From Methanobrevibacter sp. (lineage in GTDB: Archaea > Methanobacteriota > Methanobacteria > Methanobacteriales > Methanobacteriaceae), in contig JAGCLR010000230.1 of assembly GCA_017646885.1 (NCBI GenBank), forward strand, positions 73,954 through 137,953: a stretch of 64,000 nucleotides of DNA, in the 5' to 3' direction. Shown piece after piece: positions 45,873-63,926 of the stretch; positions within the stretch are counted from its first letter, which is position 1, and each line of letters begins with the position of its first letter. The position numbers and the translations under genes are program-made. Below the pieces are notes generated by a model. It was given only the letters and a program-made list of their open reading frames with translations. It had not been told where the DNA came from and ran no database searches.

Positions 45873-45928
45873 CTCTCTGTTTAGCAGCAGAGAGCTTTTT
45901 TGATTTTTTATAAAAAATATGTTATAAT
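45873..45928 (+). promoter_or_regulatory. Fused terminator-promoter
   Basis: Stem AAAGCTCTCTG/CAGAGAGCTTT with U tract carrying TTGATT (45900-45905); TATAAT 45923-45928. Confidence 0.85.
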
Positions 45929-45971
45929 ATATATGTAAGGTAAAGAAAGAGGGAAAAGGAGTTGTTGCCAA

Positions 45972-47738: not shown

Positions 47739-47763
47739 TTTTTATAAAAAAAAATGTTATAAT
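47735..47763 (+). promoter_or_regulatory. Middle promoter for the gene at 47834
   Basis: TTGATT 47735-47740, 17 bp, TATAAT 47758-47763. It overlaps the stop TGA of the upstream gene. Confidence 0.82.
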
Positions 47764-47833
47764 ATATATGTAAGGTAAAGGAAGAAAGCCTTACGAAATC
47801 AAAAAATATTTTATTAAGAAAGGTTTGTGTATT

Positions 47834-48232
47834 ATGGAGAAGATTACTAAGCGCGAGATGTTTGAGGCTATTATTGCTCTGGCTACTGATGGTGAGATGA
47901 AGTATGAGGCTGAGGCTTTCGTTAACTTCTGCGAGAATGAGATTGCCCTGCTGGATAAGAAGGCTGCTAAGGCTAAGGAGCGTGCCGCTACCAAGAAGGC
48001 TGAGGGTGACGAGCTGACTGAGGCTGTTCGTGCCGCTATGAGCACTGAGGAGTTTGAGCCTATCGCTGATATCGCCGCTCGTATTGAGGGCGAGGATGTC
48101 ACCGTGGCTAAGGTCCAGTATCGTCTGACCCAGCTGGTTAAGAATGGTGAGGCCGAGAAGGAGCAGATTACTGTTTCCGGTGGCGAAGGCCAGAAGTCTC
48201 GTAAGATTATGGCTTACAAGCTGATTGGCTGA
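47834..48232 (+). CDS. Winged-helix regulator family, copy 3 (132 aa)
   Basis: Begins MEKITKREMFEAIIAL as in copies at 26644 and 29793; Ala/Lys/Glu linker, then a diverged wHTH (PIADIAARIEGEDVTVAKVQYRL) and basic end. Strong codon bias. Confidence 0.8.
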   Translation: MEKITKREMFEAIIALATDGEMKYEAEAFVNFCENEIALLDKKAAKAKERAATKKAEGDELTEAVRAAMSTEEFEPIADIAARIEGEDVTVAKVQYRLTQLVKNGEAEKEQITVSGGEGQKSRKIMAYKLIG

Positions 48233-48278
48233 GATAGGCTTCCTAAATATGTCTGGTCAGGTAATGACATAGACTATT

Positions 48279-48316
48279 CTAAGTGGCTCTCTTAATTGAG
48301 AGCCACTTTTTCTTTA
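48279..48316 (+). terminator. Terminator
   Basis: AAGTGGCTCTC/GAGAGCCACTT stem with U tail. Confidence 0.9.
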
Positions 48317-48396
48317 ATCTGCTCCGGCCGGCCTTGGTCGCACCTTCCGACATGTCAAAAGCAAAAGAGCATTTAGAATTTTTTGTCGAAAAAACA

Positions 48397-48440
48397 GAAA
48401 AAGGCTGATATGCATAAAAAATACATATCAGCCTTTTAAA
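48397..48440 (-). terminator. Terminator of the beta-helix gene
   Basis: AAGGCTGATATG/CATATCAGCCTT stem with U tract on the minus strand. Confidence 0.9.
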
Positions 48441-48441
48441 A

Positions 48442-49170
48442 TCATTCTGCGACAACAGTAAAGATGCCGTCTTCTTCAATAACCTTATAACCAGGAGCAA
48501 CAAAGTTGCCTTCTTCAGCCTCCATGGGGTTAAATCCATGGAACTTTCCGCCTTTAACAACAATATTAGCAGTTTCACGACTATTATTTTTAATGTTTAA
48601 AGTCCACTGAGGAGTTTCACATTTGAATTCTCCACCAAGAATTTCAACTTGACCATTGTTAGAAGCATAAATTAAATCATAATGGTCGCTATCTTCTGGT
48701 GAGTGAGCGCCAACGTTAGTAAAATAACCATTTTTAATAACAACTTTTCCATTATCTGTTGCCCAAACAGCCATACTCCAGCCGCTCTTATCCAAACCAT
48801 TAATAATACCATTGCCGTCTAAAGTTAAAGTTCCTTCAACAACTTTAAATACGCCATCACCAACAGTATCCTCAGAAATGGTAAGCTCACCATTATTAGT
48901 GATAGTGGTATCAGTTGAAATAACAAAAGCGGTAGGTGCGTCAATAGATTCAGTAATAGTAATATTACCACCATTTGCGATAGCTTCAGTCAATTCTTCT
49001 AAAGATTTAACAGATAATACTTCAGCAGCAATTTCAGTTAAAACGCCAGCTTCGAGCATAATGTACATTTTATTCTCCTCTGGCTTAAAAATCATGCTAC
49101 CAATTTCAACAGTAGCTAAATCTTCTTCGTTAATAAGATATGAATGTTTTCTTGTAGTAACGATCATCAT
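48442..49170 (-). CDS. Right-handed beta-helix protein (242 aa)
   Basis: Residues 70-215 show short repeating strands (TDTTITNNGELTISED, GTLTLDGNGIINGL, GKVVIKNGYFTNV, GQVEILGGEF, ANIVVKGGKF) typical of a parallel beta-helix. Such proteins decorate heads or form receptor-binding fibres and depolymerases; no catalytic residues seen. No TAG, high-expression codons, terminator after: probably a structural protein placed in the early arm. Confidence 0.75.
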   Translation of the reverse strand: MMIVTTRKHSYLINEEDLATVEIGSMIFKPEENKMYIMLEAGVLTEIAAEVLSVKSLEELTEAIANGGNITITESIDAPTAFVISTDTTITNNGELTISEDTVGDGVFKVVEGTLTLDGNGIINGLDKSGWSMAVWATDNGKVVIKNGYFTNVGAHSPEDSDHYDLIYASNNGQVEILGGEFKCETPQWTLNIKNNSRETANIVVKGGKFHGFNPMEAEEGNFVAPGYKVIEEDGIFTVVAE

Positions 49171-49258
49171 TTTGAAACACTCTCCTTTCTTCTAAATATT
49201 AAAATTGTTTAAATTAATATTTTTATTTTTGGCCAATCTAAATTTATAATGCTTCAAC

Positions 49259-49287
49259 TTGACTTTTATTAAATTATATGTTACAAT
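49259..49287 (+). promoter_or_regulatory. Promoter for the gene at 49309
   Basis: TTGACT 49259-49264, 17 bp, TACAAT 49282-49287. Confidence 0.8.
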
Positions 49288-49308
49288 ATAATAAAGGAGT
49301 GTGATAAA

Positions 49309-50091
49309 GTGAAATATTGTTTATCTGCTCGTCAGCCAGATAGTGTTTTGAAGAAAGCTGATGAAATTAAAATTGAATTACGAGATTATAGAGCAATTCC
49401 TGATTATATTGATAAGTATCCAGATAAAGTATTAATTCTTGAAATGGAAAATGAATTACCAGAAAAATTTAATTGGGAACTAATTGAAATGTATAGTAAA
49501 AAGCATATTAATTTCTATTGTGCTACTGCTAATAAAAATCAAATGATTGAATGCCATTTAAGAGAGATTAAATATTATTATAGATATGTAATTACATCTT
49601 TTTATGAGTTAGAAGCATTAAAGAATTTAAATGTAGCATATGTTTTAATCGGCGCTCCTCTTATCTTTGATTTAAAGAATGTTGCTCGCTATGGCATTCC
49701 AGTTAGAGCAATTCCTAATATGGCATATGAGCCTTATTTAGACCATGCTGATGGCATTTGCGGCGGATGGATTCGTCCAGAAGATACAGACAAATATGGA
49801 GAATATATTTCTGTATTTGAATTTTATGCTCCAAAGAAATTGGAGAAAGAAGCTACTTTATATCATGTATATGCCGAAAATGGTAAGTGGCCCGGCAATT
49901 TAAATCTTCTTATTGATTTTCTTGGTGTTGATGCTAATAATCAAGCTATTTTTGATGAAGAGAATTTTGCCGAAACTAGAATGAACTGTAAGCAACGCTG
50001 TATGTCAACCGGCACATGCCATTATTGCGTTGAACAGATTAAATTTATTGACACAATTTATAAATACCGCAATAAAAAGAGAGAAAATTGA
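49309..50091 (+). CDS. TIM-barrel-like hypothetical protein (260 aa)
   Basis: Alternating strands and helices (KVLILEMENE, NFYCATANK, YVITSFYELEALKNL, AYVLIGAPLIFDL, PVRAIPNMAYEPYLD) as in a barrel; C-terminal Cys group (CKQRCMSTGTCHYC) may hold a metal cluster. A-ending codons unlike its neighbours suggest separate origin. U32-peptidase-like or radical enzyme alternatives cannot be settled. Confidence 0.65.
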   Translation: MKYCLSARQPDSVLKKADEIKIELRDYRAIPDYIDKYPDKVLILEMENELPEKFNWELIEMYSKKHINFYCATANKNQMIECHLREIKYYYRYVITSFYELEALKNLNVAYVLIGAPLIFDLKNVARYGIPVRAIPNMAYEPYLDHADGICGGWIRPEDTDKYGEYISVFEFYAPKKLEKEATLYHVYAENGKWPGNLNLLIDFLGVDANNQAIFDEENFAETRMNCKQRCMSTGTCHYCVEQIKFIDTIYKYRNKKREN

Positions 50092-50116
50092 TTTTTTATT
50101 TAATTTATGATATAAT
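50088..50116 (+). promoter_or_regulatory. Middle promoter for the peptidase operon
   Basis: TTGATT 50088-50093, 17 bp, TATAAT 50111-50116; the -35 overlaps the upstream stop codon. Confidence 0.82.
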
Positions 50117-50158
50117 ATTTATATAAAGAAAAGTATATATCATAAGGTGGTGCGTTGA

Positions 50159-51229
50159 TTGAAAACTCTAAATCAGCAAGAGCTGAAATCTATTGAACAG
50201 TTTTTTCAGCTCAAGCAACCTCAGTTGCTGAAAGCTATGAAGCATTATTTGAATTCTAAATATGAGAAGGTTATTGCGACTAAGCAGTATTTGATTGCCG
50301 TTGGTGATATTCCGGTCGGACTGGTGGCCCATCTTGATACAGTTTTTAAGAATCCACCTGATAATATTTTTTACGATAGAGTGAAGAATGTTATGTGGAG
50401 TCCTGAAGGTCTTGGTGCTGATGATAGAGCTGGTGTATATGCTATTGTTCAAATTTTAAAGTCTGGTCTTCGCCCCACTATTATCTTTACCACTGATGAA
50501 GAGCGCGGTTGTATTGGTGCCGACGCCCTAGTAAAGGATATTCCGCAGGCAGTTACTTCTTTGAAGTATATCATTCAGCTTGATCGCCGTGGAGCCAACG
50601 ATTGCGTCTTTTATGATTGTCATAATTCTGATTTTGACGCATATGTTGAATCTTTTGGATTTGTAACCAATTTCGGCAGCTTTTCTGATATTAGCTCTAT
50701 TTGCCCCCGATGGGGTGTAGCAGGTGTTAATCTGTCTATTGGATATTACAATGAGCATTCTGTTTCTGAAGTCCTGTGTGTTGGGCAAATGTTTGATACC
50801 ATTCAGAAAGTAAAGAAAATGCTTGAATGCGCAGAAAATGCTCCGAGTTTTGAGTATATTGAAGGATTCTCTTATTCCAAGTGGTTTAAGAAATATGCTG
50901 CCGCGCATCCAGAAGAAGATGATGATGATTTTGGCTGGGACCCTTCTTATGGCATCAGCAAGGCTGATTGGGCAAGATTTATGGAGCCTCAAATTAAATG
51001 TAATGATTGTAAAACTTGGGACTATGATTATAATCTTTTTCCCACTAAGACTGAAGATGGAAAAACCATCTTCTTGTGTTCTGATTGTGTAAGTAATCAT
51101 AAGCACCTTCATTGGTGTAAAACTTGTGGAGAGCCATTCATTGATAAGTCTCTCCCTAAAGGCAAGATTTATCAATGTAAAGACTGTAGAGGTAAAATGA
51201 ATGACGACACCAAATCTCAGCAAAATTAA
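50159..51229 (+). CDS. M20/M42-like metallopeptidase with zinc ribbon (356 aa)
   Basis: Di-zinc hydrolase motifs: VGLVAHLDTVF (near 60), GLGADDRAGVYA (near 85), TTDEERGCIGA (near 115), QLDRRGANDC (near 142) and a late GYYNEHSVSE (near 202). C-terminus has a Cys8 double ribbon (CNDCKTW ... CSDC, CKTCGEP ... CKDC). Peptidase cleaving small peptides or another amide; the ribbon may direct it. TTG start behind AAGGTGG. Confidence 0.8.
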   Translation: MKTLNQQELKSIEQFFQLKQPQLLKAMKHYLNSKYEKVIATKQYLIAVGDIPVGLVAHLDTVFKNPPDNIFYDRVKNVMWSPEGLGADDRAGVYAIVQILKSGLRPTIIFTTDEERGCIGADALVKDIPQAVTSLKYIIQLDRRGANDCVFYDCHNSDFDAYVESFGFVTNFGSFSDISSICPRWGVAGVNLSIGYYNEHSVSEVLCVGQMFDTIQKVKKMLECAENAPSFEYIEGFSYSKWFKKYAAAHPEEDDDDFGWDPSYGISKADWARFMEPQIKCNDCKTWDYDYNLFPTKTEDGKTIFLCSDCVSNHKHLHWCKTCGEPFIDKSLPKGKIYQCKDCRGKMNDDTKSQQN

Positions 51230-52652
51230 AGAGGATTTTGATAAAGTAATTCAATATTCTCAGCAAATTCCTAATCCAAAAACCGAGCGGTTATTTGATG
51301 TTTGGTGGGAATGTAAGAAGGACTTTATTGATTTATTCGGAGGGAAATATATTTATGAATTTCCCTATAAAATTTCTTTTGATTTAAGCGCAAAAGAAAA
51401 GCATGATAGAGTGATTAGATTTGCCGGACAGGTAGAGAGCACATATGGCTATTCTCAATTGGCTGAGTTTATTGAAAAGCAAGAAGAGGGTTTTTTCAAA
51501 AATTTAACCGTTGAAGATTATATCATGTGGAGTGGTAAAGTTATTAAAAAAGGCACTAAACTGGTTAAAGCATTCAAGAATTTTATTAAGAATGAGAAAA
51601 GTCTTACTGACATTCAGAATGAAGCCAGTAGAATTATCCAAGAGGATAAGATTGAAGGTACTCTGTGTTTATCTGTTCATCCTTTGGATTTCTTGTCTTT
51701 GAGTGAAAATACATATAATTGGCGTTCTTGTCACTCTCTTGATGGCGAGTATCGTGCCGGTAATCTGTCTTATATGATGGATAAGCATACAATTGTTTGT
51801 TATCTTAAGGGCGCTGACAATGTTAATTTACAGGCCTTTCATCCAGATGTAAAGTGGAACTCTAAAAAGTGGAGAGTTCTTCTGTACATTTCCAGTGATT
51901 GGAATATGATTTTCGCCGGTCGACAGTATCCTTTTGAGTCTAAGACCGGTATGGATATTGTATTGAGAGAAGTTTTGCGAGATGTAGGAATTGCCAAGAA
52001 AGATAATAAGAATAATGGTTTCCGCCAGTCTTGTTGGACAGACTGGAACAATACTTTAATTTCAAAGTGCGAGTTAAGCAACGGAGTTAAAATTGATTTT
52101 GAATCTCCATATGTTCCAGTAGGTGGGCATCTGATTGAATTAGATAAATTGTTTGCCGATGGTATTGGAGCAAAGAATTATAATGATGTACTTTACTCTT
52201 CTTGCTATAAGCCTATTTACGCATTTAAGTATATGACTTATCCTTGGGATGTAGAGCCTGGCGGAGTCCCGATGACCGTTAAGGGAAAGACTGCTTTTAA
52301 CATTGGTGGTTTTACTTATTGTTTGTGGTGTGGTGAGAAAGAGTGCCTCACAGGTGCCGAAACAATGATGTGCGAAAAGTGTGAGTTGGAACATGGTACA
52401 TCTGAAAATGATTTGTTTACAACTTGTGACAATTGTGGCAGGCGCATTTATACCGATGATTCATATGCGGTTGGTGATGATAATGTTTGTCAGCATTGCT
52501 TTGATAAGTATACTCGTCATTGCGATTGCTGTGAAGAAGTTGTATATGATGATTAGATTTGTTATCATGAAGGAACTCAGCAATATGTTTGTAAATATTG
52601 TTATGAAGAATTAAATGAAATGAATGAAAAGGAGTATTCTATTTATGGCTAA
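51201..52652 (+). CDS. Large zinc-cluster protein, second copy, with one recoded TAG (483 aa)
   Basis: LCLSVHPLDFLSLSENTYNW, then SCHSLDGEYRAGNL matches the block in 45972-47738. Cys clusters follow (CLWCGEKEC, CEKCELEHG, CDNCGRR, CQHC, CDCCEE). TAG at 52554-52556 (VVYDD-TAG-ICYHEG) continues in frame through CKYC, completing the last zinc finger, to TAA 52650-52652. This shows TAG readthrough also on the plus strand. Overlaps the peptidase gene by 29 bp. Confidence 0.8.
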
Positions 52653-53652: not shown

Positions 53653-53726
53653 AGGGGTTTGGTGCAATGGTAGCATGCCGGTCTCCAAAATCGTTGATGG
53701 GGGTTCGAATCCCTCAACCCCTGCCA
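53653..53726 (+). tRNA. tRNA-Trp(CCA)
   Basis: Acceptor AGGGGTT/AACCCCT, anticodon loop CTCCAAA, encoded CCA. Confidence 0.92.
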
Positions 53727-53737
53727 AATACTCTTTT

Positions 53738-53766
53738 TTGATTTTTTATAAAAATTATGTTATAAT
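53738..53766 (+). promoter_or_regulatory. Middle promoter for the gene at 53831
   Basis: TTGATT 53738-53743, 17 bp, TATAAT 53761-53766. Confidence 0.85.
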
Positions 53767-53830
53767 ATTTATAGAAAGTTAAGGAAGAGGTAATTTTAAC
53801 TTTCAACATTTTCCAAAAGGAGACGATACT

Positions 53831-54406: not shown

Positions 54407-54543
54407 AAGACGATTACAGCAATTTTTCTTTTATGATAATGCTTGGGGTGCCGGAGGTCACAGGTTCAAGTCCTGTCACCACTCCCACATGAGTGGTGTA
54501 GCTCAGTTGGTTAGAGCGCCGTAAATATCAAAAAAGTCGTCTT
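54407..54543 (+). tRNA. Circularly permuted tRNA-Pro(GGG) in RNA frame A
   Basis: Order is 3' half (54441-54487, with T-arm ACAGG/CCTGT, acceptor strand CACCACT, C73 and CCA), a 4-nt CATG, then 5' half (54492-54521: acceptor AGTGGTG, D-arm GCTC/GAGC, CCG). Joined between positions 29 and 30 they make a perfect anticodon stem CCGGC/GCCGG with loop TTGGGGT, anticodon GGG. The outer frame pairs AAGACGA (54407-54413) with TCGTCTT (54537-54543); CAGCAA at 54417-54422. Confidence 0.75.
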
Positions 54544-54688
54544 GTTTATTTGGTAGGTCGTTTAAGGCAAGACCACCACCGTTGATGCGAGGTGGAATTA
54601 AGTCGGAGGAGTAGTTCTTTGTGAGAGTGAAAGACCGATGAATGATGTTGGTATCAAATCCAACCCTATCGCCATTAAAAAATCTTTC

Positions 54689-54717
54689 TTGATTTTTTAA
54701 AAAAAATATGTTATAAT
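54689..54717 (+). promoter_or_regulatory. Middle promoter for tRNA-Asn and following tRNAs
   Basis: TTGATT 54689-54694, 17 bp, TATAAT 54712-54717; next such promoter is at 57093. Confidence 0.85.
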
Positions 54718-54893
54718 ATTTATGTAAGGTAAAGAGATAAGGAATTCCTTTTTGAAAGTGAGACCACACAATCTACCATTGCCTGTGGTGAGCGAGTATG
54801 AGACTGAGACTTATCTTACAGGAGGTCAATGTAGCGGAAGTCTGGTGGTAGCAGTTACGACCGAGCATCAAGAACCTGTACCTTACACGATTT

Positions 54894-54969
54894 GGCCCTA
54901 TAGCTCAGTTGGTAGAGCAATCGGCTGTTAACCGATGTGTCGCAGGTTCGAGCCCTGCTGGGGCCGCCA
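54894..54969 (+). tRNA. tRNA-Asn(GTT)
   Basis: Acceptor GGCCCTA/TGGGGCC, anticodon arm ATCGG-CTGTTAA-CCGAT, encoded CCA. A 170-nt leader of unknown structure precedes it. Confidence 0.93.
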
Positions 54970-55119
54970 TGAGAGGTCTTTAAGGTATTGGCGCGTTGAC
55001 CTCTTTAAAAAAACACACGCATACCGAGGTTTAATGTGTATGAGTTTCTCGTAAATATAAACCATACCGGGTCGGTTAGCGCACCTGTGAATACCCGTAA
55101 ATAAAAGCGCATTTCTTTT

Positions 55120-55202
55120 GCCGAATTGGTGGAATTGGCAGACACGCTAGACTTAGGATCTAGTACTTCGGTGTAAGAGTTCGAGTCTCTTATTCGGCAC
55201 CA
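55120..55202 (+). tRNA. tRNA-Leu(TAG)
   Basis: Acceptor GCCGAAT/ATTCGGC, anticodon arm CTAGA-CTTAGGA-TCTAG, long variable arm, CCA. Reads CUA/CUN. Confidence 0.93.
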
Positions 55203-55355
55203 ATTGTAAGATAGAGGCATACGCGGACACCATGCCGATGGTCTTGATTCTTACCGTGCCCTCACGTTAGCAGGGTGTTTGTTCAGGCAACTACACTCAA
55301 TAAGTAGCCTGCGGTGGTTGGTGACTCCATCAGTACATAAATAAGTCACATATAT

Positions 55356-55442
55356 GCGGCTATGTTGGAATTGGTAGACAAGCAAGCTTGAGGTGCTTGT
55401 GCTCGCAAGGGCGTATGGGTTCGACTCCCATTAGCCGCACCA
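55356..55442 (+). tRNA. tRNA-Leu(GAG)
   Basis: Acceptor GCGGCTA/TAGCCGC, anticodon arm CAAGC-TTGAGGT-GCTTG, long variable arm, CCA. Confidence 0.9.
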
Positions 55443-55528
55443 GGAAGTTGTGAGCGTATAAGACTATAAACTCTCAGTCGTTCAAATCCTAGGTGAACGC
55501 ATATTAAGCTCCAATAGGAGCAAAATAT

Positions 55529-55605
55529 GGCTCCGTAGTTCAGTTGGTCAGAACGCCTGCCTGTCACGCAGGAGGTCGACGGTTCGAGCCCGTTCGGAGT
55601 CGCCA
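55529..55605 (+). tRNA. tRNA-Asp(GTC)
   Basis: Acceptor GGCTCCG/CGGAGTC, loop CTGTCAC, CCA. Confidence 0.93.
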
Positions 55606-55608
55606 TTC

Positions 55609-55679
55609 TCGGGTATGGTCTAGGTAGGAGGACGCTTGCCCTTTAAGCAAGAGACCTTGGTGCAACTCCAAGTCCTGAT
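55609..55679 (+). tRNA. tRNA-Lys(TTT), irregular acceptor
   Basis: Starts 4 nt after tRNA-Asp. D-stem GTCT/GGAC, anticodon arm CTTGC-CCTTTAA-GCAAG, T-loop TGCAACT. Acceptor pairs only with a one-base bulge and no CCA is encoded; may need host repair or be inactive. Confidence 0.6.
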
Positions 55680-55682
55680 GAA

Positions 55683-55753
55683 TTTCCATTAGCTCATTAG
55701 TAGAGCATCATACTTATAATATGAAGAACTGGGTGCAAGTCCTAGATGGAACG
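55683..55753 (+). tRNA. tRNA-Ile(TAT)
   Basis: Acceptor TTTCCAT/ATGGAAC (1:72 mismatch), anticodon arm TCATA-CTTATAA-TATGA, T-loop TGCAAGT, no CCA. A T34 anticodon for AUA is rare in bacteria. Confidence 0.75.
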
Positions 55754-55856
55754 AGTGAAGACCACCAATCGTTAAAAAGGTGGAGGTTTAGTGACGCTGC
55801 TATTCCAAAAATGCCGCCTCGGGGATGATAGTCCGAGGAAAGGAAATGCGATATTT

Positions 55857-55932
55857 GGGCCTGTAGCTCATTTGGGAGAGCATCCGCCTTGCAAGCGGAA
55901 GGTAGTGGGTTCGACTCCCATCAGGTCCACCA
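55857..55932 (+). tRNA. tRNA-Ala(TGC)
   Basis: Acceptor GGGCCTG/CAGGTCC, loop CTTGCAA, CCA. Confidence 0.93.
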
Positions 55933-56058
55933 TTAGGAGAATCCGAAAAATAAAGAATGTGGAGCGGCAGTTACGGACCTTGTGAGGTGGCCACCAAGAG
56001 TCAAGGTAGTGGACGGCAGTAGGCAGATGCGGATTAGTTGCGACCTCCTAATTTATAT

Positions 56059-56126
56059 GTGCCAGTAGCTTAAAGATAGAGCGACTGCTGAGGCAGGGGA
56101 TGTGGGTTCAACCCCCTCTTGGTACA
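56059..56126 (+). other. tRNA-like RNA with collapsed anticodon arm
   Basis: Acceptor GTGCCAG/TTGGTAC, D-arm GCTT/GAGC, T-arm GTGGG-TTCAACC-CCCTC, but the anticodon arm is CTGC-TGAG-GCAG with a 4-nt loop, so no anticodon can be read. No CCA. Confidence 0.55.
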
Positions 56127-56403
56127 AAACCACTTATCGCCAGATGGATATATTAGATTAGACATAATATTAATGAGGTGCGATAAGTAATGGAGAAATT
56201 TTGTTGAAATAATTTTCCGCTCCTTAAATGGAAAAAATATTTCGGTTCGGTTATCCGCCCCCAGCCTTAAAGCGGTGGATACGTCAGTGGTCGGCGTAGG
56301 GACACCCCAGTCTTGTGGGTTAAGAAAGACAGCTCTGGAATTCGTGCGACAAGACGAACCCACTGATGCTGGTGCCTTGGGAACAAGGGAATGCGTTTTA
56401 TTT

Positions 56404-56488
56404 GCCCGAGTGATGGAATTGGTAGACGTGCCTGACTCAAAATCAGGTGGCTTCGGCCGTGCGGGTTCGAGTCCCGCCTTGGGCACCA
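56404..56488 (+). tRNA. tRNA-Leu(CAA)
   Basis: Acceptor GCCCGAG/CTTGGGC, anticodon arm CCTGA-CTCAAAA-TCAGG, long variable arm, CCA. Confidence 0.93.
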
Positions 56489-56753
56489 TAAAGGTAGGTG
56501 TGCTTACCTTGTGTCTTGCGACTAACGAAGATGCACACAGAACCCGTTTCTTCTCCACGGAGGTTCGCAAGCTAAAGCGAGAAGCGTCCAGAGACTGGTT
56601 GCAAACAGTCTTTGGGATTACGATAAAGTCGCCTTGAGAACTATCTTTTAAAAGAAACTATTTGCCATAATAGTCAATAAATGGTAAGGTTGGCGCTGTG
56701 AAAGTTAAATGCGTCCGAGTGTAGAGCGAAGGTTGGTCGCTACACATCTAATA
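56489..56753 (+). other. Spacer without gene
   Basis: About 265 nt, no frame with a ribosome site, no complete tRNA. Contains AGAGACTGG...CAAACAGTCTTTG and other weak stems; content unknown. Confidence 0.3.
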
Positions 56754-56756
56754 TGC

Positions 56757-56836
56757 TGGATTCGTATAATGGAAGTACATGCAGGCCCGCTGAATGCGTT
56801 GCGGGAGGAGACAGTTCGATTCTGTCATTCAGCCCC
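56757..56836 (+). other. tRNA-like RNA with oversized anticodon arm
   Basis: Acceptor GCTGGAT/ATTCAGC with C73 and CCA, D-arm GTAT/GTAC, T-arm GACAG/CTGTC are intact, but the anticodon arm is CCCGC with a 10-nt loop and GCGGG, preceded by extra bases. No readable anticodon. Confidence 0.55.
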
Positions 56837-57092
56837 AGTGGCGTCGGTTATATATAGGTACCGAAATGCCGAATAATCAAAGAGAGTGTTCTCCTTAGTA
56901 GTATTCTAGAACGCGAACGGATAATATAACTCTCCGCCATGCCAATGCCGTTTCTCGGTCCTGGAATCGGCTAGCCAAAAGCTTAAGATGCCATAGAGGG
57001 GTGTGTAAAATCACACAAATCTCGCTACGAGGTTTCGGATTGAGAAATCGCTATGGTTTACCGGTCGGCTAGACGGGCAACGGCAATCTTTC
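56837..57092 (+). other. Spacer without gene
   Basis: About 255 nt between tRNA-like RNA and promoter; stems such as GTGTGTAAAATCACAC near 57001. Ends with GGCAACGGCAATC. No frame. Confidence 0.3.
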
Positions 57093-57121
57093 TTGATTTT
57101 TTATAAAAATTATGTTATAAT
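57093..57121 (+). promoter_or_regulatory. Middle promoter for 57148
   Basis: TTGATT 57093-57098, 17 bp, TATAAT 57116-57121. Confidence 0.85.
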
Positions 57122-57147
57122 ATTTATAGAAAGTGAGGGAGAAATAA

Positions 57148-57249
57148 ATGTTTGACGATTTTGATACTCAAATCCAGTCCGATGAACGTGAGTGGGAATT
57201 CCTGGAACAGTGTAAAGCTATGGAGGGATTTTATGGAGAAGAAGATTGA
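57148..57249 (+). CDS. Small acidic protein (33 aa)
   Basis: MFDDFDTQIQSDEREWEFLE...; own promoter and GAGG site; overlaps the next gene by 17 bp. Confidence 0.62.
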   Translation: MFDDFDTQIQSDEREWEFLEQCKAMEGFYGEED

Positions 57250-57397
57250 CAAACGGATTTTTAAGAAGTCGCCTGAAGAGCTGGAACAGTATATGCAGTT
57301 CAAGCGTCGTGGCTCTCGTGTAGAGTCCAAAAAGGGAAAAGGCTCTTATAATCGTAAACCTAAGCACAAGAATGATATGTATCGGGATTGTGCTTAA
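57233..57397 (+). CDS. Small basic protein (54 aa)
   Basis: Lys/Arg-rich (RRGSRVESKKGKGSYNRKPK); GGAGG before ATG 57233. Likely RNA or ribosome binding, by charge only. Confidence 0.68.
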   Translation: MEKKIDKRIFKKSPEELEQYMQFKRRGSRVESKKGKGSYNRKPKHKNDMYRDCA

Positions 57398-57400
57398 TAT

Positions 57401-57478
57401 CGCCTGTTCGACGAAATGGCTTAAGTCGCCACCCTCTCAAGGTGGAGGTTATGGGTTCGAGTCCCATACAGGTGACCA
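57401..57478 (+). tRNA. tRNA-Glu(CTC)
   Basis: Acceptor CGCCTGT/ACAGGTG, anticodon arm CCACC-CTCTCAA-GGTGG, CCA. Confidence 0.9.
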
Positions 57479-57714
57479 GGTAGACACCAATACACGAATG
57501 CTACGGCGTGTCTAGCATAGCGGCCCACCAACAGACTGACTATGTAAAAAGTTCGTGAGATATAAGATGGATGATGTTGGCACTCTCCATCGCCTTCTTT
57601 GCCACAAGGACGTGGCCCTCCGACAGACCGCGAGGATAGAACAGTACCAGGTCGCGAAAAATTCCGGCTATAAAAATAACTGGGAGCCGTACAAAAAGAA
57701 GAGTTATCGTATTT

Positions 57715-57788
57715 AATCTCGTAGCTTAATTTAAAGCAACTGCCGATTCGTGTAGGAGTATGTGGGTTAAATCCCTCCGAGATTGACA
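57715..57788 (+). other. tRNA-like RNA with abnormal anticodon loop
   Basis: Perfect acceptor AATCTCG/CGAGATT, D-arm GCTT/AAGC, anticodon arm CTGC-(8 nt)-GTAG without a U33 pattern, T-arm irregular, ends GACA instead of NCCA. The 230 nt before it hold no gene. Confidence 0.5.
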
Positions 57789-57816
57789 GGGCATTCTACT
57801 TGCCTCCATTTGTTTT

Positions 57817-57866
57817 GACCAGATGAAAATATCGGAAATAATCCTACCGAGGCGTCTGGTTTTTTC
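57817..57866 (+). terminator. Terminator-like hairpin
   Basis: ACCAGATG with CGTCTGGT, inner CGG/CCG, then T6, directly before tRNA-Glu. Confidence 0.65.
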
Positions 57867-57941
57867 GGCCCCTTAGTCAAGCGGCTAAGACGCCGCCCTT
57901 TCACGGCGGAGGCAGGAGTTCGATTCTCCTAGGGGTCACCA
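57867..57941 (+). tRNA. tRNA-Glu(TTC), first copy
   Basis: Acceptor GGCCCCT/AGGGGTC, anticodon arm CCGCC-CTTTCAC-GGCGG, CCA. Confidence 0.93.
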
Positions 57942-57977
57942 CTTCCCACCAGGAAGTCATGCATCAAATTTATTTTT

Positions 57978-58035
57978 AGACGGATTCAGCAATTTGTTAT
58001 TTACATATTATGCTTGAAATGTGAAATAACCGTCT
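57978..58035 (+). ncRNA. RNA frame B, no tRNA payload
   Basis: AGACGG (57978-57983) pairs with CCGTCT (58030-58035); CAGCAA 57987-57992; payload is a hairpin TTATTTACAT/ATGTGAAATAA with an ATTATGCTTGA loop. Confidence 0.6.
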
Positions 58036-58044
58036 AGTTAATTT

Positions 58045-58120
58045 GCTCTGTTCGACAAGCGGCCTAAGTCATCGCCCTTTCACGGCGAAGTCACGGGTTC
58101 AAATCCCGTACAGAGTACCA
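58045..58120 (+). tRNA. tRNA-Glu(TTC), second copy
   Basis: Acceptor GCTCTGT/ACAGAGT, anticodon arm TCGCC-CTTTCAC-GGCGA, CCA. Confidence 0.9.
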
Positions 58121-58232
58121 TATCCTAAACAAGGAGGACTTTGCTTATGATTGTATCTATGAAATTCGCTCCGGAGGATAGTCCAATCGGCTGATTGGGT
58201 TCCCGGGCATGAACTGAAACTGCCCTTTATTT

Positions 58233-58309
58233 GCCCGTATAGTTCAGTTGGTTAGAACGCTCCCCTCATAAGGGAGAGGTCGATGGTTCAAATCCATCTA
58301 TTGGCACCA
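58233..58309 (+). tRNA. tRNA-Met/Ile2(CAT)
   Basis: Acceptor GCCCGTA/TATTGGC (one mismatch), arm CTCCC-CTCATAA-GGGAG, CCA. Elongator Met or lysidine-modified Ile cannot be told apart. Confidence 0.85.
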
Positions 58310-58310
58310 T

Positions 58311-58387
58311 TGCGGAGTAGAGAAGTGGACTATCTCGCTATCCTCATAAGTTAGAAATCGCAGGTTCGAATCCTGTCTCCGCAACCA
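58311..58387 (+). tRNA. tRNA with CAT anticodon (Met/Ile2)
   Basis: Acceptor TGCGGAG/CTCCGCA, arm CTATC-CTCATAA-GTTAG with one mismatch, CCA. Confidence 0.8.
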
Positions 58388-58464
58388 CGCGGGGTGGAGC
58401 AGTTGGTAGCTCGTCTGGCTCATAACCAGAAGGTCGTTGGTTCGAATCCAACCCACCGCAACCA
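58388..58464 (+). tRNA. tRNA-fMet(CAT)
   Basis: Begins CGCGGGGTGGAGCAG as bacterial initiator tRNA, with C1-A72-type mismatch and loop CTCATAA; one extra acceptor base compared with the usual form. CCA encoded. Fits with phage folD, which feeds formylation. Confidence 0.82.
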
Positions 58465-58470
58465 TAATTA

Positions 58471-58587
58471 AAGACGCACACAGCAATCTTTTCTATTTAG
58501 AAAAAATTTAGCTCATTTGGTAGAGCAATTGTCTGTTAAACAATGTGTAGTTGGTTCAATTCCAACAATCTTTTCTTTATGCGTCTT
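58471..58587 (+). tRNA. tRNA-Asn(GTT)-like in RNA frame C
   Basis: Frame stem AAGACGCA (58471-58478)/TGCGTCTT (58580-58587), CAGCAA 58481-58486. Payload 58502-58574 is an unpermuted tRNA: D-arm GCTC/GAGC, arm ATTGT-CTGTTAA-ACAAT, T-arm GTTGG-TTCAATT-CCAAC, acceptor AAAAATT/AATCTTT with one mismatch, no CCA. Confidence 0.6.
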
Positions 58588-58602
58588 GTATTTACTACCA
58601 AT

Positions 58603-58679
58603 GGCCCGGTAGCTCAGTTGGTAGTAGCAGTGGACTGAAAATCCACGTGTCGGCGGTTCAAGTCCGCCCTGGGCCACCA
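58603..58679 (+). tRNA. tRNA-Phe(GAA)
   Basis: Acceptor GGCCCGG/CTGGGCC, arm GTGGA-CTGAAAA-TCCAC, CCA. Confidence 0.92.
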
Positions 58680-58980
58680 CTAAATAATTTTTCATACGCA
58701 TTCCCCTTTTAATAATGCTGAAAGATTATTAAAGAACCACAAATGAAGATCCGTATCCATTAGATTGATTCCTTTCCTTGATTGTTTTTTCTTTGCTTTC
58801 TACTTTCATTTACGGCTTGGCGGATACGGCTGTGGGATGCCATTCTTTCTATATATTTTAAAGTATATAGAAACAAAAGACTACATCTGGAGCGAGTCTT
58901 TTACATCTAGGCGAGACCAAAATCGCTTGTTTTTCTACGCTTCAGTTTTTCATTTGATTATTTAAAAAGGAGATTTGAAT

Positions 58981-59247
58981 ATGCATATTGTCAGTTCGGC
59001 TATTAAGTTCAGAGAAACATCCAATAGTCCATATTGGCATATCATTTGCGGCAAACGACACTGTGACTGCTATGAGACGATGTTTAATCATCAATTCACT
59101 CATGATAGAAATAGTGAAGTTCAAGGTTTTCTAACTGATACAAATCAGTTTGTTAACCGCTACGAGGCTGCGGAGATTGCTTACAATGCAAATCAAATCT
59201 CACAGCCTCTTTCTATTTTATATAGTGAAGATGTCTGGCCTGAGTAA
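58981..59247 (+). CDS. Conserved phage protein (88 aa)
   Basis: AAGGAG before ATG 58981. C-terminal VQGFLTDTNQFVNRYEAAEIAYNANQI matches a short pattern found in many large phages. Residues HIICGKRHCDCYETM carry Cys/His that may bind metal. Function unknown. Confidence 0.75.
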   Translation: MHIVSSAIKFRETSNSPYWHIICGKRHCDCYETMFNHQFTHDRNSEVQGFLTDTNQFVNRYEAAEIAYNANQISQPLSILYSEDVWPE

Positions 59248-59256
59248 TCAGTATAT

Positions 59257-59347
59257 GGAGTGGTACCCAAGAGGCTAAAGGGGCTCCCCTGCTAAGGGAG
59301 TAGGCGCAGAGATGCGTGCGAGGGTTCGAATCCCTCCCACTCCGCCA
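59257..59347 (+). tRNA. tRNA-Ser(GCT)
   Basis: Acceptor GGAGTGG/CCACTCC, arm CTCCC-CTGCTAA-GGGAG, long variable arm, CCA. Confidence 0.93.
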
Positions 59348-59474
59348 GTGGCGAGTAGTATGGGCCGAGGCCTGGAAGGCTGAAAGCAAGAGGATTACCA
59401 GCATCGCCATAGATATTCGTAAGGATATCGGGTGTCGCTAATAGACCGACAATCAATAAAGTCTATTATTATAT

Positions 59475-59564
59475 GGAGGGGTCGCATAGCCTGGTCGAGT
59501 GCACCGGTCTAGAAAACCGGAGACCCGCAAGGGTCCGTGGGTTCGAATCCCACTCCCTCCGCCA
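59475..59564 (+). tRNA. tRNA-Ser(AGA)
   Basis: Acceptor GGAGGGG/TCCCTCC, arm CCGGT-CTAGAAA-ACCGG, variable arm GACCCGCAAGGGTC, CCA. A34 is uncommon for bacterial tRNA-Ser. Confidence 0.85.
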
Positions 59565-60031
59565 TGCCCTGTTAGTCGGGTGCCAAATAGACTAAACCAG
59601 TCGGGTACACTAGCAAATACTTGCTTTACGGCGCGAGTAGGAGTATCCAGCCGTATTGAGTGCGTAGCCCAAATGGTTAAGAGGCGACGGAATAAAAAGC
59701 CGTTATAGTGTAGGGATACCTAATCCTACCGCATGTAGTCCTAACAATCTTGCAAGCCTATGCCACAGCAGTAAGCTCAAACCGCAAGATTTCTGAACAA
59801 ACGCATAAAATCCAGCGCTCTATGACTTAAAGTACGAAGTGGGATGACAACCCCCAGAAATGAGACATAGTTTTTGGTTATTGCTCAGTATTTGCTATCT
59901 ATTGGACTCGTCATTCAAGAAATAGTAAATACGAAGGTATGTAGATTGTACCTGCCTAAGCTAGCTCTGGCTAACTAAGTGGCTATTAAAAGCAATCCGC
60001 TAGGCGTGCTCATAGCGAAAGTACGCAGCAT
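59565..60031 (+). other. Spacer with one degenerate tRNA-like sequence
   Basis: Near 59659-59734 a tRNA-like fold (GTGCG/CGCAT acceptor remnant, D-arm GCCC/GGC, ACGGA-ATAAAAA-GCCGT) has an AAA anticodon at best and no CCA. The rest shows repeated AGCTAGC-like stems but no gene. Confidence 0.35.
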
Positions 60032-60106
60032 GCTGGCGTGGCTCAATGGCAGAGCAGCTGATTTGTAATCAGCAGGTTGCAGGTTCGACTCCTGTCGCCA
60101 GCTCCA
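60032..60106 (+). tRNA. tRNA-Thr(TGT)
   Basis: Acceptor GCTGGCG/CGCCAGC, arm GCTGA-TTTGTAA-TCAGC, CCA. Confidence 0.93.
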
Positions 60107-60245
60107 TCGTTACTCCGCTAGGGCGGATAAATCATTCCAAAACCTGAGAGCACTTATTCTACGCGTGCGGTCGTACGGCAACGCATGGGCGGGACTCCTC
60201 AGTTAGTGAGTTTGATGGCAGGGTTCGAATCCCGGTAACGAACCA
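60107..60245 (+). other. 139-nt tRNA-like RNA without anticodon arm
   Basis: Acceptor TCGTTAC (60107-60113) and GTAACGA (60235-60241) plus A, CCA frame a molecule with D-arm-like CTC-AGTTAGT-GAG and a normal T-arm AGGG-TTCGAAT-CCCG, but an insertion of about 75 nt with its own hairpins and no anticodon arm. Confidence 0.5.
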
Positions 60246-60403
60246 ACTGACACGACTGCTGAAGTGTCGCGGTCCAGGATTTTATCCGAATGTTAGTCCG
60301 CCGTCTTTTGGTATGTATATATTATCACACGAGGAAGGCTCTGGCTGAGTGTGTGTTTGAAGTAAGCAGACGCCAAAAGGAAAGATACGAAAACTCTTTA
60401 TAT

Positions 60404-60481
60404 GGTGGGTGTAGTTCAGCTGGCTAGAACGCCAGATTGTGGCTCTGGAGGTCGCCGGTTCGAGTCCGGTCATCCACCCCA
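60404..60481 (+). tRNA. tRNA-His(GTG)
   Basis: G-1 opposite C73, acceptor GTGGGTG/CATCCAC, arm CCAGA-TTGTGGC-TCTGG, CCA. Confidence 0.92.
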
Positions 60482-60487
60482 TTACAT

Positions 60488-60564
60488 GCCCTGGTAGTTT
60501 AATAGGTGAAAACGGGCGACTTATAATCGCTTGTTGGTGGGTTCGACTCCCCCTCGGGGTACCA
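60488..60564 (+). tRNA. tRNA-Ile(TAT), second copy
   Basis: Acceptor GCCCTGG/TCGGGGT, D-stem GTTT/AAAC, arm GGCGA-CTTATAA-TCGCT, CCA. Confidence 0.85.
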
Positions 60565-60569
60565 TCAAC

Positions 60570-60634
60570 AGACCCTTACAGCAATTTATTGCCGAAAAGG
60601 CTCCACTCTGCTAAAGTGATATGAAATTGGGTCT
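60570..60634 (+). ncRNA. RNA frame D with tRNA-Ser-like arms
   Basis: AGACCC (60570-60575)/GGGTCT (60629-60634), CAGCAA 60579-60584. Payload: AATTT/AAATT stem around a D-like hairpin GCC-GAAAA-GGC and an anticodon-like arm CACT-CTGCTAA-AGTG (would read GCT, Ser). No T-arm. Confidence 0.5.
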
Positions 60635-60671
60635 AGATTGTAATGATTATAAGTTAGGTGGTGAAAACCCA

Positions 60672-60827
60672 ATGGGAAATGTTCCTGTGAGTTGCGTCAC
60701 TTGTCCATATGAATCTAGTTGTAATACTGCTTTTAACTTTGAAGATTGCCATTTTTATTATATGAGACGAGAAAAATCCTCTTTAAAGGCGCAATTAAAA
60801 AATCTTTTTGGTAAGTTATTTAAATAA
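60672..60827 (+). CDS. Cys-rich small protein (51 aa)
   Basis: CVTCPYESSCN ... C: zinc-site-like; basic C-terminal helix. Start ATG 60672 chosen (TAGGTGG upstream); a longer reading would run into frame D. Confidence 0.68.
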   Translation: MGNVPVSCVTCPYESSCNTAFNFEDCHFYYMRREKSSLKAQLKNLFGKLFK

Positions 60828-60844
60828 TACTTGCCATTATATTT

Positions 60845-60921
60845 GCCCCAGTAGCTCAGTAGGATAGAGCAACCGCCTTCTAAGCGGTAGGTCGGGGGTT
60901 CGAATCCCTCTTGGGGTGCCA
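60845..60921 (+). tRNA. tRNA-Arg(TCT)
   Basis: Acceptor GCCCCAG/TTGGGGT, arm ACCGC-CTTCTAA-GCGGT, CCA. Confidence 0.92.
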
Positions 60922-60925
60922 ATTT

Positions 60926-61000
60926 GGCAAGGTAGCCAAGTGGTAAGGCGCCAGCCTGCAAAGCTGCGTATCGTGAGTTCAAATCTCACCCTTGCCTCCA
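60926..61000 (+). tRNA. tRNA-Cys(GCA)
   Basis: Acceptor GGCAAGG/CCTTGCC, loop CTGCAAA, CCA. Confidence 0.92.
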
Positions 61001-61003
61001 CAT

Positions 61004-61080
61004 GTCCCCTTAGCTTAGCTGGACAAAGCGTGCGGCTACGAACCGCAAGACCGGGAGTTCGAATCTCTCAGGGGATACCA
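61004..61080 (+). tRNA. tRNA-Arg(ACG)
   Basis: Acceptor GTCCCCT/AGGGGAT, arm TGCGG-CTACGAA-CCGCA, CCA. Confidence 0.92.
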
Positions 61081-61135
61081 GCGGATTAAAACTTTCCGGA
61101 AAGTCGGGGCTTCATGAACCCCGTATCCGCAACCA
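61081..61135 (+). other. 55-nt mini tRNA-like RNA
   Basis: Acceptor GCGGAT/ATCCGC and an ACCA end enclose only two hairpins, ACTTTCC/GGAAAGT and CGGGG-(9 nt)-CCCCG whose loop holds TTCATGA, a T-loop-like sequence. No D or anticodon arm. Confidence 0.5.
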
Positions 61136-61144
61136 AAAAATTAT

Positions 61145-61173
61145 TTGACATTTTTAAAAATTTATGTTATAAT
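61145..61173 (+). promoter_or_regulatory. Promoter for tRNA-Ile(GAT)
   Basis: TTGACA 61145-61150, 17 bp, TATAAT 61168-61173; transcription start only ~12 nt before the tRNA. Confidence 0.85.
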
Positions 61174-61192
61174 ATTTATATAAATTAGATAT

Positions 61193-61269
61193 TGTTCCTT
61201 AGCTCAGATGGTTAGAGTACACGACTGATAATCGTGAGGTCCTGGGTTCGATTCCCAGAGGGACAACCA
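61193..61269 (+). tRNA. tRNA-Ile(GAT)
   Basis: Acceptor TGTTCCT/AGGGACA, arm ACGA-CTGATAA-TCGT, CCA. Confidence 0.92.
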
Positions 61270-61274
61270 AATAT

Positions 61275-61350
61275 CCGGGTGTGGCGCAGATGGTAGCGCG
61301 CGTGATTTGGGATCACGAGGCCCAGAGTTCGAACCTCTGCACTCGGACCA
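61275..61350 (+). tRNA. tRNA-Pro(TGG)
   Basis: Acceptor CCGGGTG/CACTCGG, arm CGTGA-TTTGGGA-TCACG, CCA. Confidence 0.92.
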
Positions 61351-61412
61351 AGCTCTTTGAAGCGCACGGAAGTATAATCTTTGGAACCGAAACAAAATCA
61401 AAGATATAATTT

Positions 61413-61601
61413 AAGACTCATTACAGCAAACATATCAATTCTTGTAAAAAGAAATTGGTATAACTGTTCATTTCCGTTCAAGGTACTAACTGGGATAGGT
61501 GATGTAAATAGTTATGTTTAAGAGGTTTGAAGTTGGCTTTATAGAGAGGATAAACAGAAAGTCAATTTACTCTAGGTCCTGTTAAAATCCTTATGAGTCT
61601 T
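61413..61601 (+). ncRNA. RNA frame E with ~165-nt unknown payload
   Basis: AAGACTCA (61413-61420)/TGAGTCTT (61594-61601), CAGCAA 61424-61429. Payload starts with a strong hairpin ATATCAATTC/GAAATTGGTAT and has no gene or recognisable tRNA arm set. Confidence 0.5.
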
Positions 61602-61636
61602 GGGCTTTTAAAAATAATTAACATGAATATAAATTA

Positions 61637-61768
61637 AAGACGCTTGCAGCAATCCTTCTTTTACAGAAGATTGCAGGTTCGAATCCTGTAAAAGCTGCTT
61701 TAAGCTTTTTGGCGGAATTGGTTTACGCGTTTGACTTAAAATCAAATTATTTTTGTTTTAGGCGTCTT
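61637..61768 (+). tRNA. Circularly permuted tRNA-Leu(TAA) in RNA frame F
   Basis: 3' part first: T-arm GCAGG-TTCGAAT-CCTGT (61673-61689), acceptor strand AAAAGCT (61690-61696); six bases; then 5' part: acceptor AGCTTTT (61703-61709), Leu-type D-arm, anticodon arm TTTGA-CTTAAAA-TCAAA (61730-61746), anticodon TAA. The break is in the variable arm. Frame stem AAGACGC (61637-61643)/GCGTCTT (61762-61768), CAGCAA 61647-61652. No CCA encoded. Confidence 0.75.
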
Positions 61769-61776
61769 GTTCTTTT

Positions 61777-61805
61777 TTGATTTTTTAATAAAAATATGTT
61801 ATAAT
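61777..61805 (+). promoter_or_regulatory. Middle promoter for 61839
   Basis: TTGATT 61777-61782, 17 bp, TATAAT 61800-61805. Confidence 0.85.
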
Positions 61806-61838
61806 ATTTATAGAAAGTTAAGAAAGGAATTGATATTT

Positions 61839-62087
61839 ATGACAAAGAAGAAAGTTTTCTCTGAAAAGGAAATGGCTCTGATGGAAGCTATGGAGGCTCG
61901 TGAAGAGCTGAAGCGAGTGCGTGAACTGTTCAATTGGGCGATTGATGAGTATTTTGAAATCGCCAATATGGAACTCACTATCGCACAGCTGAAGTATGAA
62001 GTTTCTGTGAAAAAAGTCATGATGCTTTGTCGTGATGGCGAGAATCTGCCTCAAATGAATGCCATTACAGTCCATTATCCTTACTAA
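61839..62087 (+). CDS. Helical hypothetical protein (82 aa)
   Basis: Long charged helix (ALMEAMEAREELKRVRELFNW) and second helix; AAAGGAA before ATG 61839. Co-transcribed with tRNA-Val. Confidence 0.72.
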   Translation: MTKKKVFSEKEMALMEAMEAREELKRVRELFNWAIDEYFEIANMELTIAQLKYEVSVKKVMMLCRDGENLPQMNAITVHYPY

Positions 62088-62089
62088 AT

Positions 62090-62165
62090 GCGGGGTTAGC
62101 TCAGCTGGTAGAGCACATGCCTTACAAGCATGGGGTCGGGGATTCGAGCTCCTCACTCCGCACCA
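62090..62165 (+). tRNA. tRNA-Val(TAC)
   Basis: Acceptor GCGGGGT/ACTCCGC, arm CATGC-CTTACAA-GCATG, CCA. Starts 2 nt after the upstream stop codon. Confidence 0.92.
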
Positions 62166-62274
62166 CAAGACATATACAGCAAATTACACAAACTGTGTGT
62201 TGTTGGTTCAAGTCCAACTATCTCGCCTTTGGGGTATCGAACAATGGGTAGTTCAACAGAAATAATGTGTCTTG
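62166..62274 (+). tRNA. Circularly permuted tRNA-like RNA in frame G, identity unknown
   Basis: 3' part: CTGT, T-arm GTTGG-TTCAAGT-CCAAC, acceptor strand TATCTCG (62219-62225); CCTT; 5' part: acceptor TGGGGTA (62230-62236, seven pairs incl. GU), D-arm GAAC/GTTC, ACAG. Break lies in the anticodon arm (ACAG/CTGT); the flanks give no clear anticodon. Frame stem CAAGACA (62166-62172)/TGTCTTG (62268-62274), CAGCAA 62177-62182. Confidence 0.6.
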
Positions 62275-62281
62275 TATGTAT

Positions 62282-63000: not shown

Positions 63001-63076
63001 TCCCCCTTAGTATAACGGTTAGTACAGCGGGCTCTAACCCCGCGGGTGTTGGTTCGACTCCGAACAGGGGGTGCCA
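63001..63076 (+). tRNA. Amber-reading tRNA, anticodon CTA (Sup-CTA, probably Gln-charged)
   Basis: Directly follows tRNA-Gln(CTG). Arm GCGGG-CTCTAAC-CCCGC gives anticodon CTA, which pairs with UAG. D-arm GTAT/GTAC, T-loop TTCGACT, acceptor TCCCCCT/AGGGGGT, G73, CCA. Unpaired U1-U72 and G73 match GlnRS preference for a weak first pair. The T-stem has one bulged base. It supplies the sense reading of TAG seen throughout the late genes. Confidence 0.82.
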
Positions 63077-63926
63077 AGGCATTACGGACAGAAATCGTAT
63101 GTAAGTCCTCTTTGTCTTTCCAGTAGGAAGTAGGATTAGAAGTGTCCATCTTTTAAAGAGTGGTCCGCGGTTTAGTACTATACCTTTGGTCGTAAAAGAC
63201 ACGCTACTGGCGTTTGCGGTCAACGACAAACCGCTTTAAGCAACCAAGATAGAAACCCTCCGGTGAATAGCCCTGGTGGTTGCGATTTCGACTAATTCTA
63301 TCATGAACTTTTAAAATTTTGCATCTTGGTGAAGAGTGGATACCACCATGCCAAGAACTTACCCTCACTTCGGGAAGAGAGAATCGGGTTTATAGACGAT
63401 AGCCTATAATTCCTGTAAGGCTTAATGTAGTGATACATTTTGACTACGCACGAATGTGTGTCTCACGGGTAGGTGTGCAAACATAGTCGCATTTAAAAGC
63501 ACTGTCTCATCGCTTCCGCAATAGACGCCCCTGTGGGGAATAAGCCTTGTTAGGGATTAGTTGGTGACTGTTCCAAACCAAGGTACACCAATAAGGAAGT
63601 TTGCGTTGATGCCATAGTAATATGGATATAAGATGAGGTTGTGGTACGAGTAGCCCAATCGCAAATAACAATAATGCTATTTGGTGTAGATATAATAGTT
63701 TACAATTCTGAATGGCGGGTGAAAGTTATAGGTAATCATTCCTATATAGGATTTGGCAGATAAGAGCCACTGGGGATTAACCCAGACAACAGGATAGCTT
63801 ATCAGCTGGGGCAAGAAGTTAGAGGTCGCTCCTCGAAGCTCAGACTTGTCTCCCTATTGGCTGAAAATAAATGAAGACTAAACAGTTTGTATGGCGAAGG
63901 TCAGCAAAATTTTAAGGGTTATATAT
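63077..63926 (+). other. 850-nt region without gene
   Basis: No frame with a ribosome site on either strand and no complete tRNA. Many local stems (CGGTTTGTCG-like, GGGAAGAGAG/CCCTCACTTC). Looks like continuous structured RNA between tRNA genes. Confidence 0.35.

Follow-up and report, generated by a model that had tools for sequence, protein, structure and literature searches.

Within the tRNA array of a 64,000-nucleotide stretch of DNA (contig JAGCLR010000230.1; hereafter the window), which is a portion of a phage genome, we identified seven copies (A–G) of one RNA frame, a short handle that encloses tRNA-like and other payloads. Y RNAs are the known bacterial partners of Ro60 and combine an end stem with a permuted tRNA-like domain. 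We consider it likely that the seven copies are Y-RNA-like scaffold RNAs, with a handle predicted to bind a ring formed by a Ro60-like DUF2828–DUF7788 protein and payloads predicted to serve as tRNA-mimicking docking arms. The frame is best read as a Ro-binding handle because of its association with DUF2828 genes, the Ro60 fold of a modeled partner, its Y RNA layout, and the alignment of the Y RNA family YrlA to copy G.

Seven predicted RNAs in a phage tRNA array share one handle

ARAGORN listed 30 tRNAs in the array. All seven copies lie on the + strand and run in the order AGACNN, three to four more bases, CAGCAA, payload, NNGUCU, and then U or A followed by G (3′ WG). The end stem AGACNN/NNGUCU forms 6 bp in 7/7 copies, with one G–U pair in copy G. 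All seven CAGCAA words on the + strand between 53,601 and 63,400 fall inside copies A–G. Across the window, AGAC..CAGCAA occurs eight times against 0.67 expected (maximum of 5 in 100 shuffles), and the eighth match, at 36377, has no closing strand. An earlier note on this DNA had described seven copies with an AGAC stem, CAGCAA, a payload, and a closing strand; we recovered every one, with starts within 1–2 nt of those it gave:

54408..54544, + strand: copy A, handle with a permuted tRNA-Pro-like body (T arm 54460-54476, D arm 54501-54517)
57978..58037, + strand: copy B, handle with a plain hairpin
58472..58588, + strand: copy C, handle with an unpermuted tRNA-Asn(GUU)-like body (ARAGORN 58502-58575)
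60570..60636, + strand: copy D, handle with an anticodon-type stem-loop CUGCUAA (Ser GCU) at the payload end
61414..61602, + strand: copy E, 189 nt, payload without assignment
61638..61769, + strand: copy F, handle with a permuted tRNA-Leu(UAA)-like body (tRNA assigned by eye)
62168..62274, + strand: copy G, handle with a permuted tRNA-like body

The tRNA-like domain is thus permuted in A, F, and G (T arm, linker, D arm), unpermuted in C, and absent from B, D, and E, so that the differing payloads reported in the earlier note were borne out. When its halves are read as joined, copy A has the anticodon GGG; copy F is opened between the anticodon arm and the variable-arm hairpin. Copies A, C, F, and G measure 107–137 nt, B 60, D 67, and E 189, compared with 90–150 nt for bacterial Y RNAs. 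Copy E is identical to its counterpart in a related locus (L013) at 173 of 190 positions (91%) and is perhaps a separate conserved RNA.

The handle stem covaries

Relative to the nearest relative, G002, stem pair 5 has changed on both sides in copies C (G–C to A–U) and D (C–G to U–A). To assess covariation, we took 80 viral loci retrieved through their protein; these supplied 63 candidates, whose selection did not demand the variable pairs. Pair 5 was standard in 61/63 (shuffled mean 38.8, maximum 48) and pair 6 in 59/63 (mean 43.7, maximum 50; n = 1000 in both cases), and pairing at positions 7–9 was no higher than in shuffles. Because pairs 5–6 exceeded all 1000 shuffles and pairs 7–9 did not, we define the handle stem as 6 bp. 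These results indicate a real RNA element with a covarying stem, as the earlier note had proposed. CAGCAA began at offset 9 in 200 of 213 distinct copies retrieved with a strict descriptor, which demanded exact words. Stems also vary across seven hand-picked cultured phages, in whose search CAGCAA and the following WG were fixed: GGAAUC in P100; GAGCGC and GGACUC in LeBron; AGAAUC in EF1; GGAUGC in S13; GACCAA and GACCGU in dune; and AGACAC and AGGCAC in FADO and BcoS-136.

An unpaired CAGCAA beside a covarying stem would also suit a self-cleaving or self-ligating ribozyme, which the earlier note had entertained together with a ligation or cargo module. However, protein binding explains the conservation equally well, no Rfam ribozyme family was among the matches, and the gene that accompanies the frame encodes a protein predicted to fold like Ro60. 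We found no evidence supporting catalysis and regard a ribozyme as extremely improbable; the suggestion of a cargo module comes close.

The frame recurs in phages and bacteria

When viral contigs were scanned for one exact stem (GC/GC), 22 stretches emerged, and a looser scan gave at least 120. Counting those of the window, the strict descriptor yielded 242 copies, of which 213 were distinct, and 120 of 130 records contained at least one; scrambled control words gave a mean of 0.1 copies (maximum 3). This count is biased because the loci were fetched by motif. As a fairer sample, we used the 80 viral loci above, the best 80 of 533 fetched by DUF2828 protein with a query alignment built from proteins at motif-bearing loci. 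These held 66 strict copies, spread over 34 loci and without exception on the same strand as the gene (controls 0.25, maximum 5); after removal of 14 loci that overlapped motif-fetched ones, 36 copies remained in 20/66 loci, none of them antisense. When any stem was allowed, 254 copies were found in 68/80 loci, 224 sense and 30 antisense; since anagrams of the words gave 38.1 (maximum 64), part of these relaxed copies is background. All seven cultured-phage loci contained relaxed copies, 32 in total against 3.8 for anagrams (maximum 8), with only one in S13. In bacteria, we counted 108 copies in 78 loci, and those in Thalassotalea, Colwellia, Octadecabacter, and Burkholderia, with no DUF2828 in the stretch, are probably chance matches. 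The Phass-1 stretch contained no frame. The outcome against which the earlier note had staked its proposal, that no further copies would exist anywhere, therefore did not occur.

Payloads include permuted tRNA-like bodies and anticodon-like hairpins

Permuted tRNAs were called in 78 of the 213 distinct copies, 67 of which also had a recognizable D arm (copy F lies outside the 67). Their layout starts with the T arm and the acceptor 3′ strand, continues across a short linker to the acceptor 5′ strand, and ends with the D arm; as judged by eye, they are opened within the anticodon stem, at 33|34 of the loop, or, in Leu-like copies, before the variable arm. Among 243 non-redundant viral copies, 120 had a T loop, 92 were short without one, and 31 remained. 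A rough regular expression classed 57 of the 120 as permuted and 26 as normally ordered, leaving 37 undecided. Anticodon-like hairpins were found in 65/120 T-loop copies (shuffles mean 23.6, maximum 38) and 34/92 short copies (mean 9.6, maximum 16); the 10/31 among the remainder, with 7.4 in shuffles, showed no excess over chance. In six bacterial loci from Butyrivibrio and its kin (L167, L171, L174, L182, L208, L229), the tRNA-like bodies are in normal order, and a GC-rich hairpin separates them from the 3′ handle strand. ARAGORN called no tRNA in L171, L208, or L213.

Joining the halves restored a full anticodon arm, defined as a 5-bp anticodon stem, a 7-nt loop, U33, and R37, in 41 of the 67 permuted copies, compared with a mean of 9.3 (maximum 14) when tails were swapped. 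This excess would fit an intron-like handle, removed by a nuclease and an RNA ligase that join the halves, which would make the copies permuted genes of working tRNAs. Matches to RtcB or Rnl-type ligase families in 28/40 phage records (weak ones counted) are in line with this, and ARAGORN listed neither a Pro-GGG nor a Leu-UAA tRNA in the window. However, 26 of the 67, copy G included, gave no complete arm with a script that skips variable-arm openings (as in L030 and L051), the joins fall at several differing positions, hairpin-only copies offer no halves that could be joined, and Ro-like genes adjoin both the bacterial copies and YrlA. Pairing of 27–29 with 41–43 would moreover be expected without splicing. 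Because the joins exceed chance yet need no splicing, we rank this explanation only as a rival, and an improbable one. We give a similarly small chance to a variant in which the CAGCAA handle and a Ro60-like ring form an RNA jig, on which a ligase of phage or host would join split, inside-out tRNAs into working ones. If true, it would be the first viral system for permuted-tRNA maturation and would reveal the role of Ro60–RtcB operons.

The excess of anticodon-like loops in short and T-loop copies suits another possibility, namely that handle-borne tRNA bodies and anticodon hairpins are decoys that would titrate anticodon nucleases of the host, whether or not the Ro-like protein takes part. 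A passage of PMC7790460 suggests that the tRNA-like domain of YrlA may competitively inhibit anticodon nuclease. However, 58/92 short copies have no such loop, and a decoy role alone explains neither the handle nor the Ro-like gene. We consider the decoy reading rather unlikely; as a sub-function, it would be compatible with Y-RNA-like scaffolds.

The frame is accompanied by a gene whose product is predicted to fold like Ro60

A DUF2828-type gene was present in 74 of 103 copy-bearing bacterial stretches, on the same strand in 74/74 and with the RNA usually just upstream, and all but three of the 40 phage records bearing the frame (37/40) had DUF7788. Pfam assigned both DUF2828 and DUF7788 to 5/5 members tested, and the predicted structure of one member matched Ro60 over the whole chain. 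A search of the PDB with the L183 protein sequence returned nothing meaningful. Next to the RNA–DUF2828–RtcB operon of bacterial locus L208, a divergent WYL-domain gene (3377-4363; homologs in L171, L213, and others) encodes a possible regulator of the operon.

RtcB accompanied 34/103 copy-bearing bacterial stretches. In the phage records, the ligase matches comprised PF09414 in 26/40 (15 over the cut-off; some in 640–680-aa frames resembling NAD DNA ligases), PF09511 in 3/40, and RtcB in 2/40. An RNA ligase as the common factor was accordingly dropped as not universal. TROVE was likewise dropped as the partner, its profile PF05731 matching 1/40 frame-bearing records.

A model of Y-RNA-like scaffolds and the evidence against it

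Taken as Y-RNA-like scaffolds, the RNAs would be transcribed and would use the handle, a 6-bp AGACNN/NNGUCU stem with an unpaired CAGCAA, to bind the DUF2828–DUF7788 ring; the tRNA bodies or anticodon hairpins that the handle encloses would be docking arms that mimic tRNA. By analogy with the Ro60–Y RNA–PNPase machine (RYPER) of Deinococcus, docked mimics may steer the ring, in concert with an RtcB or Rnl ligase or with the PNPase of the host, to tRNAs and tRNA fragments during infection. Splicing would not be required, since the handle stands where the anticodon arm would have its tip, an arrangement shared with YrlA.

Several observations weigh against this model. The partner is missing from 29/103 bacterial stretches and 3/40 phage records, and the scarcity of TROVE matches counts here as well. 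Conversely, a copy is missing from 46/80 protein-fetched viral loci with strict words and from 12/80 under the relaxed descriptor too. The payloads of B and E are not tRNA-like, and many copies retain anticodon sequence beyond the needs of a mere handle. No DUF2828 was found in the 64 kb of the window; because the Ro-like gene of G002 lies ~9 kb downstream of copy G's counterpart, we expect the window's own beyond its end. The Rfam model YrlA (RF02553) aligned in register to copy G (62167-62276, positions 1–114 of 114, 26.1 bits) and weakly to copy F (61645-61760, full length, 20.6 bits, shifted at the handle), and in full length to one copy of mycobacteriophage LeBron (39.8 bits, E 2.6e-5, shifted at the handle's 5′ strand). 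All three scores fall short of the gathering cut-off of 69 bits, and neither for F nor for the LeBron copy does the match keep register with the 5′ strand of the handle. The YrlA model also weakly matched tandem stretches of ordinary tRNAs in the array, so that the match to copy G is by itself weak evidence.

Other features of the window

A ROOL RNA (63301-63922, 348 bits) directly follows the tRNA array. ROOL was present in only 8/40 frame-bearing phage records, is thus not tied to the frame, and was dropped as a candidate partner. Within the array, six AT-rich stretches of 72–95% identity (TTGA...TATGTTATAAT; 53725-53784 and at 54347, 54676, 57080, 61132, and 61764) look like repeated promoters. 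At 63002-63072, ARAGORN called a tRNA with the anticodon CUA as Pyl, a possible amber suppressor. Two proteins of one phage family without known role (phrog_18912) are encoded upstream of the array (45972-47738 and 51201-52556), and window DNA 44,531-52,600 had no near match in phages.

Comparison with known systems

Phage Y RNAs are already known in principle. A passage of PMC12282133 suspects that Listeria phage CKA15 has Y RNAs as well as an Rsr-like protein, and the paper cites Chen et al. for Y RNAs of bacteria and mycobacteriophages, and Ro/TROVE proteins in jumbo phages are mentioned in parts of PMC7824862 and PMC7765460. Among the papers listed in searches on phage permuted tRNAs, Y RNAs, Rsr, YrlA, and DUF2828/DUF7788, no title or abstract opening describes the CAGCAA handle. 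The earlier note's word "undescribed" holds only in part, as bacterial Y RNAs have this layout and the neighboring gene has a predicted Ro60 fold. New, besides the handle, are the DUF2828 partner, arrays of differing mimics in one phage, and copies whose payload is just an anticodon-like hairpin. CAGCAA provides a sequence-level handle that finds candidate phage Y RNAs by the hundred and links this Y-RNA-like family to a domain of unknown function with a predicted Ro60 fold; some phages appear to carry a whole panel of such RNAs with different tRNA identities. A DUF2828 protein was found in 672 of 50,697 phage records, and B. subtilis and E. coli K-12 are among the hosts, so that the role of an anticodon-bearing Y RNA becomes directly testable. 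Plant papers also name DUF2828, a possible lead toward plant Y RNAs, for which a passage from 2015 (PMC4726728) knew no candidate.

Algae and archaea have permuted tRNA genes, in which the 3′ half precedes the 5′ half. The permuted copies have the same half order; unlike those genes, they have a handle tied to a Ro-like gene and no sign of excision.

According to a passage of PMC8394870, Rsr is held by the end stem of the bacterial Y RNA and PNPase is bound by its tRNA-like domain, and in some bacteria the RNA is located inside an RNA repair operon with rtcA–rtcB; the operon order in an excerpt of PMC7790460 is rsr–yrlBA–rtcBA. Two marks of a bacterial Y RNA recur here, a stem of the 5′ and 3′ ends (the 6-bp P1) and a gene near a Ro60 ortholog, here DUF2828–DUF7788, which has the predicted Ro60 fold and is not TROVE by Pfam. 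The copies resemble YrlA in the 6-bp end stem, in the order T arm, closed acceptor hairpin, D arm, and in lying beside genes for a Ro60-type protein and RtcB. They differ in having CAGCAA in the handle bulge where YrlA has AUGCU, in their DUF2828–DUF7788 partner, in occurring as several copies per phage, and in that some retain anticodons or are anticodon hairpins only. The partner model matches Ro60/Rsr (1yvr, 2nvo; phage phiLo Ro60, 9l5y) over the whole chain, and both families have a vWA-type domain with an invariant DxSxSM, although they are separate in Pfam and share 10–16% identity in the structural alignment. A close parallel to the phage copies is the gp53 locus of LeBron, where the same handle stands beside the same protein family and relatives are annotated "Ro-like RNA binding protein"; instead of a seven-copy array, it has three copies of the handle immediately downstream from the gene, with the stems GAGCGC, GGACUC, and GGUCAC.
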